Origin: Leeuwenhoekiella blandensis MED217 | GTDB lineage: Bacteria > Bacteroidota > Bacteroidia > Flavobacteriales > Flavobacteriaceae | Assembly (NCBI RefSeq): GCF_000152985.1 | Contig: NZ_CH672395.1 | Location: forward strand, 4,065,823 to 4,129,822 | Direction: 5' to 3' | DNA: 64,000 nucleotides | In this document: positions 17,911 to 20,991 of the stretch, piece after piece | How the letters are laid out: each line of letters begins with the position of its first letter | Numbering within the stretch: position 1 is the stretch's first letter | Translations under genes and position numbers: made by a program | Notes under the pieces: generated by a model | What the model saw: the letters and a program-made list of their open reading frames with translations, nothing else | What the model was told of the DNA's origin: nothing | The model's database searches: none

Positions 17911-18828
17911 TTGGCAAAAACCATACGCATAGGTACCCGCGACAGCGAGTTAGCGCTCTGGCAGGCACATACCGTACAGGATCAATTGGAAAACTTAGGT
18001 TATAAAACCGAGTTGATTTCAGTTAAATCAACCGGAGATCTTATCCTTGACAAACCGCTTTATGAACTAGGAATCACCGGTATTTTCACCAAGACTTTAG
18101 ATGTTGCAATGATCAATGGCGATGTAGATATCGCGGTGCATTCTATGAAAGATGTTCCTACACAACTTCCAAACGGTATTGTGCAAGGTGCGGTTTTACC
18201 TCGCGCTGCTACCGAAGATATTTTTGTCTTTAAAAAAGATAAAAACGCTACAGATTTTACTAAATCTGTTACCATTGCTACGGGAAGTTTACGCCGCAAA
18301 GCGCAATGGCTTAACAAATACCCAAAGCACCAGGTAGTTGATCTACGCGGAAACGTGAACACACGCCTTCAAAAAGTAGCCGATAATGATTGGGCGGGAG
18401 CTGTGTTTGCAAAAGCAGGTTTAGAACGCATTAACTTGAAGCCCGAAAATCACGAAGTTTTAGACTGGATGATTCCTGCTCCGGCGCAAGGTGCAATGGT
18501 GATCGCAGTAATGGATAATGATGCCTTTTGCAAAGAAGCTTGTGCAAAACTCAATGATGCTGATGCAGCGCTAACCACAAAAGTAGAGCGCGAATTTCTT
18601 CGGAAATTAGAAGGAGGTTGTACTGCTCCTATTGGCGCGATCGCAAAAATTGAAGACGACCATATTCATTTTCACGGAGCGCTTTTCAGTCTGGATGGAA
18701 CTCAAAAATTAGAGATCAAAGAAAGTATTCCGGTATCAGAATGTCTGGATTTTGGTGCGCTGTGTGCTTTAAAAATTTTGGAAGAAGGCGGCCGCGAATT
18801 GATGGAAGCTATTAAGAAAGAACTTTAA
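17911..18828 (+). CDS. hemC: Hydroxymethylbilane synthase (porphobilinogen deaminase)
   Basis: This 305-residue enzyme condenses four porphobilinogens to hydroxymethylbilane. Cys237 in LEGGCTAPIG carries the dipyrromethane cofactor, and Asp81 in HSMKDVP is the catalytic acid. The Arg-rich TGSLRRKAQW and DLRGNVNTRL blocks are intact. It starts with TTG at 17911, three bases after the hemA stop, so translation is probably coupled. Normally hemD would follow at once, but here a DUF559 unit begins two bases after the stop codon. Confidence 0.95.
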   Translation: MAKTIRIGTRDSELALWQAHTVQDQLENLGYKTELISVKSTGDLILDKPLYELGITGIFTKTLDVAMINGDVDIAVHSMKDVPTQLPNGIVQGAVLPRAATEDIFVFKKDKNATDFTKSVTIATGSLRRKAQWLNKYPKHQVVDLRGNVNTRLQKVADNDWAGAVFAKAGLERINLKPENHEVLDWMIPAPAQGAMVIAVMDNDAFCKEACAKLNDADAALTTKVEREFLRKLEGGCTAPIGAIAKIEDDHIHFHGALFSLDGTQKLEIKESIPVSECLDFGALCALKILEEGGRELMEAIKKEL

Positions 18829-18830
18829 AA

Positions 18831-18869
18831 CCTCTCATCCTCAATCCTTCTCCCAAAGGAGAAGGAAGC
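18831..18869 (+). repeat. Left inverted end of the DUF559 element
   Basis: It begins CCTCTCATCC and holds a perfect hairpin (CCTTCTCC, loop CAAA, GGAGAAGG; 18846-18865). The right arm supplies a Shine-Dalgarno-like AAAGGAG about 12 bases before the ATG at 18874. Confidence 0.7.
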
Positions 18870-18873
18870 CCTT

Positions 18874-19926
18874 ATGAAAAGAAGCAATCACATAAAACTT
18901 GCGCGCTTGCTTAGACAAGACTCAACCGAAGTAGAAAAGGTGCTTTGGGAATTGCTTCGTGATCGTAAAATAAACGGACTAAAATTTAGAAGGCAACATC
19001 CTTTAAAAAGTTATATCGTTGATTTTTTCTGTTATGAATTAAAACTAATTATCGAGCTAGACGGTGGTTATCATAATCATCCAGAACAAAAGGAAAAGGA
19101 TGAAATTAGAGATTTACATTTGAAAGCCCTTGGCTACAAGGTACTGCGTTTTTCAAACACAACAGTTTTAAAAGAACCTAAGGTTATTACAGATACAATT
19201 GCAGAATATAAAAGTTCTAAAGTGAATCGTTCCGCTCCCCTCTCCGTCGGGAGAGGGGCCGGGGGTGAGGGAAAAAGCATTCTTTCCACTAAAAAACTCA
19301 CCTCTGCCCAAAAGAATTTGATCTTGGGTGCTGGTTTTTCGGTGGTTGAATATGATGCGATTCAAATTGAATTTCTAGATGTTGAATTTCCGAAGAATTT
19401 AGAAAATCTGATTTTCACGAGTAAAAATGGGGTTCAGGCTTTTTTAAAGATGCAACCCGATCTGAATACCGAATCTTTTAGCTGTTTTTGCGTAGGTTCT
19501 AAAACCGAAAGTTCCTTAATGAAAAAAGGTTTGAATGTGGTGAAAACTGCTCAAAATGCAGCAGATTTAGCCGATTTCATCGTGAAAAACTATCAAAATG
19601 AGCATTTTTCCTTCTTTTGCAGCACAATAAGAAGAAACGAACTTCCGGAACATTTGACTAAAAATCAAGTGCCTTTTGAGGAAATCGTTTGCTATAAAAC
19701 ACAGCTCAATACGAAAGAATTTAAACAGGAATTTGACGCCGTTCTTTTTTTCAGTCCGTCTGGAGTACAAAGTTTTTCGGCTGTAAATAATTTTAAGAAT
19801 ATGCTTTCGGTTTGCATTGGTAACACCACCGCTGCCGAAGTTCAACAACATACCCAAAACGTTACCGTTGCCAATGCCACTACCATCGAGAGTGTTATTG
19901 CGCGGGCGGTAAAGGCTTTAAACTAA
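18874..19926 (+). CDS. hemD: DUF559 endonuclease-like domain fused to uroporphyrinogen-III synthase (HemD)
   Basis: This 350-residue predicted fusion has two parts. Residues 1-117 are a DUF559 domain (Vsr/PD-(D/E)XK-like), with Asp50 in YIVDFFCYE and Glu61-x-Asp63 in IIELDGGYHNH. Residues 118-133 are translated from a GC-rich palindromic repeat (APLSVGRGAGGEG). Residues from 134 are a full-length HemD (about 217 residues; SILSTKKLTSAQKN start, FTSKNGVQAF, CVGSKTESSL, FFSPSGVQSF, CIGNTTAAEV), which cyclises hydroxymethylbilane to uroporphyrinogen III. No ATG or GTG in frame precedes the HemD part inside the repeat. HemD must therefore be made as a fusion, be processed, or start at a weak codon such as TTG at about 19318. 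Confidence 0.88.
   Translation: MKRSNHIKLARLLRQDSTEVEKVLWELLRDRKINGLKFRRQHPLKSYIVDFFCYELKLIIELDGGYHNHPEQKEKDEIRDLHLKALGYKVLRFSNTTVLKEPKVITDTIAEYKSSKVNRSAPLSVGRGAGGEGKSILSTKKLTSAQKNLILGAGFSVVEYDAIQIEFLDVEFPKNLENLIFTSKNGVQAFLKMQPDLNTESFSCFCVGSKTESSLMKKGLNVVKTAQNAADLADFIVKNYQNEHFSFFCSTIRRNELPEHLTKNQVPFEEIVCYKTQLNTKEFKQEFDAVLFFSPSGVQSFSAVNNFKNMLSVCIGNTTAAEVQQHTQNVTVANATTIESVIARAVKALN
19234..19270 (-). repeat. Right inverted end of the DUF559 element
   Basis: It contains a perfect 9-bp hairpin (CCCCTCTCC, loop GTCG, GGAGAGGGG; 19237-19258) followed by GGGGGTGAGG. Its reverse complement aligns with the left end along almost the whole length. Confidence 0.7.
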
Positions 19927-19959: not shown

Positions 19960-20991
19960 ATGATCAAGAACGATTTATTTTTAAGAGCATTAAAAGGAGA
20001 AACGGTAGAGCGCCCTCCGGTGTGGATGATGCGTCAAGCGGGACGTTATTTACCCGAATTTCAAGAGATCAAAGCGAAATACGACTTTTTTACCCGTTGC
20101 CAAACTCCAGAGCTTGCCAGCGAGATCACCGTGCAACCCATACGCCGTTATGGGATGGACGCCGCGATTTTATTCAGTGATATTTTGGTGATTCCGCAGG
20201 CGATGAATATTCACGTGGAGATGAAGCCGGGCATTGGGCCGTGGTTGCCAGACCCTATTCGCTCTCACAAAGATCTAGAGCGTGTGATCGTACCAGATAT
20301 TAATGACACGCTGGGTTATGTGATGGACGCCATCAAAATGACCAAGGAGAAACTCAACGACGAGATTCCGTTGATTGGTTTTGCTGGGAGTCCGTGGACG
20401 ATCTTGTGTTATTGTGTGCAAGGTCAAGGTTCAAAAAACTTTGATATCGCAAAAGAATTTTGCTTTACTCAACCCGAAGCTGCACACGCACTGCTTCAGA
20501 AAATCACAGACACCACAATTTTATATTTAAAAGAAAAGGTAAAAGCCGGAGTGAATGCTGTTCAGGTTTTTGACAGCTGGGGCGGAATGCTTTCACCGGT
20601 GGATTATCAAGAATTCAGTTGGCAATACATTCAACAGATCATTGACGCTTTAAAAGAAGAAATTCCGGTGATTGCTTTTGGAAAAGGCTGTTGGTTTGCG
20701 CTGGGCGAAATGGCAAAAAGTGGCGCTTCAGCCTTAGGTGTAGATTGGACCTGCAGCCCACGAAATGCACGCTACTTAACCGGTGGAAATATTACGCTTC
20801 AAGGAAACTTTGACCCGACACGCTTGTTTTCGCCTCCGGCGGAAATCAAACGTATGGTTACCGAAATGATCAACGCTTTTGGAAAAGATAAATACATTGT
20901 GAATTTAGGTCACGGTATTCTACCGAATATTCCGCTGGAAAATGCCGGTGCGTTTATTGAAGCCGTAAAAGAATACAAAGCAGAACGATGA
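19960..20991 (+). CDS. hemE: Uroporphyrinogen decarboxylase
   Basis: This 343-residue enzyme removes four carboxyl groups from uroporphyrinogen III to give coproporphyrinogen III. The active-site loop near the start, [17 protein letters not shown], is canonical, as are [11 protein letters not shown] (with the catalytic Asp), GFAGSPWTI and GNFDPTRL. The ATG at 19960 is chosen over an in-frame upstream extension that runs through the short CTCGAG repeat. The stop overlaps the next start by four bases (ATGA), so translation is coupled. Confidence 0.95.

Follow-up and report, generated by a model that had tools for sequence, protein, structure and literature searches.

Hairpin-ended DUF559 nuclease cassettes read in frame within HemD, LeuS and other conserved proteins of Bacteroidota: candidate homing elements without a splicing partner

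Homing endonucleases in conserved genes usually have a splicing partner, an intron or intein, through which the host product stays intact; I-Bth0305I is intron-encoded. In this work we analysed a window of 64,000 nucleotides from Leeuwenhoekiella blandensis MED217 (contig NZ_CH672395.1, positions 4,065,823 to 4,129,822 of the forward strand), in which a 442 bp hairpin-ended unit encoding a DUF559 (Vsr-like) nuclease sits between hemC and hemE at 18830-19271, its frame continuing into HemD with no intervening stop. On comparison of sequences, the unit is probably best read as a non-splicing cassette which resembles homing endonucleases and which the host protein tolerates as an additional domain. 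EDxHD enzymes form one of six homing endonuclease families, and I-Bth0305I has been described as a long multi-domain protein whose DNA target extends over nearly 60 bp (PMC3943268). The EDxHD nuclease fold is common to the DUF559 cassettes, which unlike I-Bth0305I are translated within the host protein, have hairpin ends and no intron, and contain little beyond the catalytic domain.

Insertions in phage DNA methylases, consisting of the ShiLan domain or of a lone LAGLIDADG, are reported to leave the host frame open and to contribute an endonuclease with no detectable splicing domain; the distribution of ShiLan is disjunct and homing-like, its HNH part is read out of the host frame, and similar out-of-frame insertions are noted in other phages and in prokaryotes (PMC11855218). 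As far as the accessible text goes, these share with the DUF559 cassettes the character of open-frame, non-splicing endonuclease insertions; unlike ShiLan, the DUF559 cassettes carry the nuclease in the host frame, end in hairpins and occupy 19 families of mainly cellular genes. The string "palindrom" is absent from the text of the ShiLan paper (PMC11855218). The Rickettsia palindromic elements (RPEs) lie in frame in unrelated coding genes and are translated as an added peptide, and thereby resemble the DUF559 units in having a palindrome read in frame within coding genes; RPEs are about 150 bp long with no nuclease described in the accessible portion of that source (PMC10969869), whereas the DUF559 units hold a nuclease between hairpins and form site-specific clades. 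In Caulobacter, VsrA is a DUF559, Vsr-like PD-(D/E)XK endonuclease which is blamed for the SOS response in cells without the ScmA methyltransferase, and is encoded by a chromosomal gene with a predicted role in very-short-patch mismatch repair; it has the same domain as the cassettes but is free-standing, and fusion, hairpin ends and mobility go unmentioned in the accessible parts of that report (PMC12907096). Inteins, like the DUF559 cassettes, lie in frame at fixed sites of conserved genes and carry a homing nuclease, whereas the DUF559 fusions scanned here have no splicing domain and the insert is expected to remain in the mature protein. The titles and abstract openings listed from the open-licence literature yielded no description of DUF559 cassettes in genes; within that material the closest published ideas are the ShiLan insertions and the RPEs, and what is new here is the combination and its breadth.

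The window genome (G000) is one contig of 4.24 Mb. The features of the locus, with what identifies them, are the following:

17911..18828, + strand: hemC, hydroxymethylbilane synthase, 305 aa (TIGR00212, 285 bits against a cut-off of 164; Porphobil_deam, E = 1.4e-69)
18830..18866, + strand: left end of the unit, a C-rich outer tail at 18830-18844 and a hairpin at 18845-18866 (sequence and DNA fold)
18874..19926, + strand: complete DUF559-HemD fusion frame, 350 aa (single open frame; Pfam)
18874..19224, + strand: DUF559 (Vsr-like PD-(D/E)XK) nuclease part (PF04480, E = 1e-36, Pfam stretch about 18892-19203; D50, E61 and D63 present; Foldseek matches to 3hrl and I-Bth0305I)
19222..19224, + strand: GTG, the sole in-frame ATG, GTG or TTG from the end of DUF559 to the first strand of HemD (start-codon scan)
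19237..19271, + strand: right end of the unit, a hairpin at 19237-19258 and the tail GGGGGTGAGGG (translated within APLSVGRGAGGEG; modelled as a low-confidence linker)
19273..19926, + strand: HemD (uroporphyrinogen-III synthase) part, opening with the first strand KSILSTK and lacking its own start codon (PF02602, E = 7.8e-33; model and Foldseek matches to HemD structures)
19960..20991, + strand: hemE, uroporphyrinogen decarboxylase, intact (TIGR01464, 433 bits against a cut-off of 303; ATG at 19960 by eye, scanned from 19963)

The initial annotation had placed a repeat-ended unit directly after the end of hemC at 18828, had read the frame as open from the ATG at 18874 through the right-hand repeat into HemD, and had called the downstream hemE intact, and all three points are borne out. 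The start of hemC in the mechanical list of open reading frames is a TTG, and its stop is the TAA at 18826-18828. Within the fusion, DUF559 matched at residues 7-110 with 125.5 bits (curated cut-off 20.6) and HEM4/HemD at residues 149-342 with 114 bits (cut-off 27.5), covering profile positions 6-230 of 231. An AlphaFold model of the fusion (7 rows; mean predicted local distance difference test score 79.6, predicted template modelling score 0.54) shows both DUF559 and HemD folded and matches HemD structures in Foldseek, with residues 117-132 as a low-confidence join which covers the translated hairpin end. According to Pfam, DUF559 is the sole product encoded by the unit, with no transposase of the DDE or Y1 type. 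Searches with PADLOC for a defence system and with PHROGs on the fusion gave weak matches only (best E 1.2e-5 and 1.2e-8).

A search of Bacteroidota for DUF559 frames joined to unrelated genes, which the initial annotation had proposed, was strongly positive. In a sample of 149 genomes of the family, 90 DUF559 matches were found in 54 genomes, and 30 of these matches belong to frames of 346 aa or more. All 30 of these loci were taken, together with 56 of the 60 other family matches (the four left out were all short frames) and 26 matches from the genus, six of which overlap. The profile gave 108 hits on the collected loci, which by host divide into 65 alone, 21 in LeuS, 11 in HemD, four each in MetH and RecG, and one each in HisD, a PALP enzyme and an intein-like insert; two of the LeuS hits are pieces of one, and the lone class includes two halves of one broken frame (L080). 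At the level of the phylum, DUF559 was present in 164 of 392 genomes, from which 40 long frames were drawn in addition to 80 named loci, a choice biased to long frames from which no rate can be derived. These added IleS, a second LeuS site, UvrC, a UvrD-like helicase, CinA, acetyl-CoA synthetase, an NAD epimerase, a methylmalonyl-CoA mutase fusion, HemF, HisF, IspF and RNase H to the hosts, the finer names IleS, HisF and IspF being our own assignment. Host families confirmed by Pfam number 19, including LeuS, MetH, RecG, UvrC and HemF, and 17 of them are found in Bacteroidota.

The nuclease of these cassettes is predicted to be active. All three of D50, E61 and D63 are present in 38 of 41 domains that are fused and in 60 of 61 that stand alone; one HemD insert (L100) is without E61. 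The nearest solved structure is 3hrl, an endonuclease-like Neisseria protein (sequence E 1.5e-25, Foldseek E 1.2e-5), and Foldseek also returned the catalytic domain of the homing endonuclease I-Bth0305I (3r3p; E 3e-3, prob 1.00, template modelling score by target 0.78). Within the same HemD fusions the ratio of nonsynonymous to synonymous substitution rates (dN/dS) was 0.06-0.11 for DUF559 and 0.15-0.21 for HemD, in six pairs of five genomes, of which one DUF559 pair had a saturated synonymous rate (dS) and gave no ratio, and all except G000/G011 had a dS near or above 1. By these measures DUF559 is under purifying selection and its catalytic residues are mostly retained. When 103 domains were placed in a tree (five shorter than 85 aa were left out), the host labels needed seven changes, which is the minimum, against a mean of 39.4 for shuffled labels, and each main host fell on one side of a branch with Shimodaira-Hasegawa-like approximate likelihood ratio support of 99 for HemD, 98 for MetH, 99 for RecG and 87 for LeuS. 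As the DUF559 domain is short, 51 of the 98 inner branches of this tree had support below 80. The cassettes share with homing genes both a fold, that of a known homing endonuclease, and a site-specific occupation with empty alleles in relatives.

The evidence for exchange comes from LeuS, where the insert lies in the editing domain between NWIGRSxGA and VFTTRPDT. The genus sample comprised 13 Leeuwenhoekiella genomes, one per species, all of which were examined. Each has one leuS place, filled in eight and cassette-free in five, so that a filled leuS is the only copy found in its genome. The host LeuS sequences of the 13 genomes form one clade (support 98), whereas a one-clade model for their eight DUF559 inserts was rejected by the approximately unbiased (AU) test (p-AU 0.007). 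Because G007 has an estimated contamination of 9%, the test was also run without it: six inner inserts, without G007 and G012, were rejected as one clade (p-AU 0.004), this six-row set having been named after the 103-domain tree was seen and one LeuS row having been left out of the AU test. In the pair G001/G009 the dS of DUF559 was 0.032 against 0.55 and 0.48 in the LeuS flanks, which is about 15-fold lower; the corresponding values were 0.47 against 1.40 and 1.99 in G009/G005, and 0.18 against 0.43 and 0.47 in G002/G010. Windows of 100 bases showed a clear excess of identity in the insert for G001/G009 and G005/G009. Some of these LeuS pairs look as they would after homing or after gene conversion confined to the insert, and the cassette appears to have spread there independently of its host gene.

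At hemD, a comparison of the hemC-hemD junction in relatives found the empty site that an insertion at the start of hemD would imply. The fusion is present in six of the 13 genomes, namely the window genome, L. palythoae, L. nanhaiensis, L. polynyae (G010) and two metagenome-assembled genomes (MAGs), and the other seven (G001, G003, G004, G006, G008, G009 and G012) carry a cassette-free hemD with its own ATG, hemC not being seen directly before hemD in G008. The same fusion occurs in an Aquimarina MAG and, judging from motif and host tree, in five further genera of the family sample, those outside the genus having been picked by long frame. A sequencing or assembly error, which the initial annotation had named as a way for its reading to fail, is very unlikely as the source of the fusion, given its presence in five other genomes of the genus. 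Its placing of the unit exactly at the start of hemD holds; its suggestion that capture of the start codon makes loss of the unit harmful is unsupported, because sister lineages live with an intact, cassette-free hemD. The HemD host tree omits three hemD loci from other genera that lack the cassette. In it G004, which is cassette-free, groups as sister with the filled G005 (99/99), and the cassette-free G003 does so with the filled G010 (98/98); G006, also without the cassette, adjoins G010 and G003. By eye, the ATG-bearing spacer of G003 is replaced in G010. Directly before the normal ATG, G004 and G006 retain pieces of 16 and 12 nt which match left ends of the unit (0 of 500 shuffles each); their best matches are the left ends of G010 and G011, not that of the sister, and the other five cassette-free hemD spacers show no excess match. 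The simplest reading suggested by these pieces is a loss of the cassette which left the outer tail and restored the start codon, the alternative being a C-rich stretch older than the unit. At this site the copy looks vertically inherited within the genus, and the dS comparison found no signal of exchange limited to the insert.

The ends of the window unit look like inverted hairpin-plus-tail units. Folded as DNA, the left hairpin reaches -9.2 kcal/mol (z -3.55), which none of 200 shuffles equals, and the right one has a z of -2.15, with six of 200 shuffles folding equally well. The initial annotation had called the unit repeat-bounded, which is right for these ends and fails for an inverted repeat between the two flanks, which in the window copy does not score above shuffles (23 against 24 for the best of 40). 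Among the 108 hits, flank-to-flank inverted repeats beat all 40 shuffles in 54, with about three expected by chance, a count that includes LeuS locus L112 twice and, in L115, an 11-nt match without a visible hairpin. By host these are 41 of 65 alone, 10 of 21 in LeuS, two of 11 in HemD and the one in the PALP enzyme; the single HisD and intein-like cases were negative. A repeat of the test with other shuffles and another choice of rows gave 45 lone units with inverted ends, among which the similarity of the ends tracks nuclease protein identity (Mantel r 0.30, 0 of 2000 permutations; mean end similarity 0.38 against 0.29). Hairpin ends are translated in the HemD and LeuS fusions, and solo in-frame copies of the palindrome exist too. 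The HemD-type palindrome is scarce, with 0-3 matches per genome in 13 genomes (one in G000) and none for a backward control; this is unlike the many copies of RPE-type elements, and a high-copy repetitive extragenic palindromic (REP) family is ruled out by it as the source of the HemD-type ends.

Taken together, we picture a family of small mobile cassettes, each composed of a Vsr-like DUF559 nuclease between two hairpin ends and having no intron or intein for its removal. Such a cassette would lodge in frame at a tolerant spot of a conserved gene, such as the N-terminus of HemD or a loop of LeuS, MetH, RecG and others, and would be translated as a domain of the host protein through the expression of the host gene, so that neither a promoter nor splicing would be needed. 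In DNA that is incoming or related, the nuclease would presumably cut alleles in which that site is empty, the cassette would be copied in when the break is repaired from a filled allele, and the translated hairpin ends may serve as short flexible linkers that are open in the frames used. Later the cassettes would decay or be lost, at times restoring the host gene. In its widest form we lean towards this account: that hairpin-ended Vsr-like nuclease cassettes are widespread in Bacteroidota as homing elements that do not splice, that they sit at fixed, tolerant sites of essential genes as permanent domains of LeuS, MetH, HemD, RecG and other proteins, and that they sometimes leave decayed domains or short in-frame palindromic pieces which reshape the host proteins. 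The HemD and LeuS cases suggest that the cassettes manage without a splicing partner by using loops and termini which tolerate about 130-160 extra residues, even where no other leucyl-tRNA synthetase gene was found in the genome. If this is true, selfish nucleases have another way to persist in essential genes, the insertions make up a natural catalogue of tolerant sites in core enzymes and supply lineages with new protein domains of their own, and a function can be assigned to part of what is now a domain of unknown function.

Several observations weigh against a homing-like cassette. The case for cleavage and homing is wholly comparative, and the match to I-Bth0305I has a Foldseek E above 0.001, with a mitoribosome protein ranking just higher. 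A smaller tree puts the MetH, RecG and HisD rows in an unresolved part among the LeuS rows, and inverted ends were not significant by the shuffle test in MetH (0/4) or RecG (0/4). At LeuS the dS of the insert is clearly lower than that of the flanks in three of five pairs and close to it in G006/G005 and G006/G009; the identity windows show near flanks about as alike as the insert in G002/G010, and the identity of 0.985 for the G001/G009 insert stands against a flank mean of 0.864 which is lowered by variable stretches. By eye, no remnant of a cassette is evident in 17 family and five genus cassette-free LeuS loops, and other in-frame repeats occupy this loop in relatives without DUF559; site sharing is therefore in part loop tolerance, and scars are seen only at hemD. 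At the hemD junctions compared by eye there is no direct target-site duplication, dS is alike for DUF559 (0.23) and HemD (0.18) in G000/G011, and older pairs have a higher, not a lower, dS in DUF559. The HemD inserts of the genus lie on one side of a branch (78/83) and fit vertical descent with losses.

The compatibility of the HemD inserts with one clade and the similar dS in G000/G011 are what one would expect from old domain fusions that were passed down with the host gene and repeatedly lost, without homing and with a nuclease that is not mobile at present, and the left-end pieces in G004 and G006, which suggest loss, and the nuclease clades that follow the site agree with such a history as well. 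We nevertheless regard it as unlikely, since it would have to account for LeuS inserts that the AU test rejects as one clade within hosts that form one, and for the roughly 15-fold deficit of dS in the G001/G009 insert.

It is rather unlikely, too, that mobility belongs to the hairpin repeats, as elements of a REP-like or miniature inverted-repeat transposable kind moved by another enzyme or by recombination, with DUF559 as a passenger. Solo HemD-type palindromes do occur at gene starts without DUF559, other repeat families share the LeuS loop, and LeuS of G012 has an extra hairpin pair that lacks a nuclease; set against these are the rarity of the HemD-type palindrome, the (modest) tracking of nuclease sequence by end sequence, and the purifying selection on a nuclease whose catalytic residues are mostly kept.

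A separate production of HemD by internal restart, with no working fusion protein, appears improbable. The initial annotation had stated that HemD has no in-frame ATG or GTG of its own, which is correct for the repeat and the start of HemD, the original ATG being gone in G000 and the GTG inside the palindrome being out of frame there; it overlooked the GTG at 19222, which sits in frame in the tail of DUF559, 19 codons before the first strand of HemD. This GTG position is common to G000 and G011, a GTG lies within the repeat in G005 and G002, and in-frame TTG codons are found inside HemD of G000 itself (read from the sequence), all of which would permit a restart. Against it, in two of 12 fusions, those of L. 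polynyae and the Aquimarina MAG, the stretch from the end of DUF559 to HemD contains none of ATG, GTG and TTG; a usual restart cannot make HemD there, and a fusion product is the plain reading of the sequence in these two. In addition, all six fusions of the genus stay open into HemD though the hairpins are read in different frames (...LSVGRGAGGEG... against ...GRGVGVRV...), which a restart would not require, and restart cannot account for inserts inside LeuS, MetH and RecG.

That DUF559 serves HemD or its operon in some cell function, as a useful pairing of domains, is very improbable: its dN/dS below that of HemD and the recurrence of the join in several genera would fit, whereas the same type of nuclease is joined to 19 unrelated protein families and sister species live without the cassette. 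Least credible of all is an intein or other self-splicing element, for although inteins typically share insertion sites across genera and spread in a homing-like manner and one DUF559-like nuclease does lie in an intein-like insert, the splicing profile is absent from 19 other host proteins (E up to 1e-5) and from the window fusion (E up to 0.001), in HemD and HisF the insert is N-terminal and has no host part before it, and 18500-19700 has no match to a known structured RNA in Rfam (to E 0.1).

The intein-like case is L114 (2266-4416, minus strand; G152), in which a DUF559/Vsr-like nuclease lies within an insert of a phage head-morphogenesis-like protein, bounded in our own assignment by C-FTAWQ and VHN-C; its Intein_splicing match (E 2e-6, 28 bits against a curated cut-off of 35.8) was the only one among 20 proteins scanned. 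Other arrangements of the domain were also seen. A HEM4 protein (L335, 1480-2748, minus strand; G472) has DUF559 joined to its C-terminus and not, as in the fusion of the window, to the N-terminus, and a single LeuS frame of the Chitinophagaceae MAG SJ21 (L214, 751-3957) carries two DUF559 domains at two sites. Outside Bacteroidota, DUF559 is N-terminal on RimM in a Micavibrio MAG (L239) and on a radical SAM protein in a deltaproteobacterium MAG (L232). In the LeuS inserts L113 (G140) and L115 (G014), D63 is changed to V and E, respectively, no G+C-rich hairpin ends are visible by eye and the frame is kept; these are apparently decayed cassettes that are now part of LeuS.

The editing-domain loop of LeuS appears as a hotspot of coding repeats (L337-L350 and L167-L169), with in-frame repeats of the MLKQVQHD..SERHSELDSES, CTGAGCGCAGTCGAAG and AGAATTC types. 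Several Leeuwenhoekiella have solo HemD-type palindromes (L364, L367, L368, L369; L355, L360, L363), which are either read in frame within the N-terminal portion of a TrpF-like reading frame or stand immediately ahead of a ProC-like start, both names being read from the translation only. Solo copies are also found inside HemD, and the HemD of G002, G004 and G005 (L010, L011 and L015) has a second, hairpin-derived in-frame insert after SxNAVxAF, for example LPSPAGEGPGMR or PPLLEERAGVR. Outside the window, the L. blandensis genome holds a second, distant HemD-like gene (C1, 233704-234204; 27% identity), and such a gene (26-30% identity) is present in all 13 Leeuwenhoekiella genomes, so that the HemD of the operon may not be the sole copy. 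Finally, at locus L145 (G100) a lone DUF559 domain occurs twice in identical form, the copies being separated by about 1.4 kb, possibly the product of a recent duplication or transposition.

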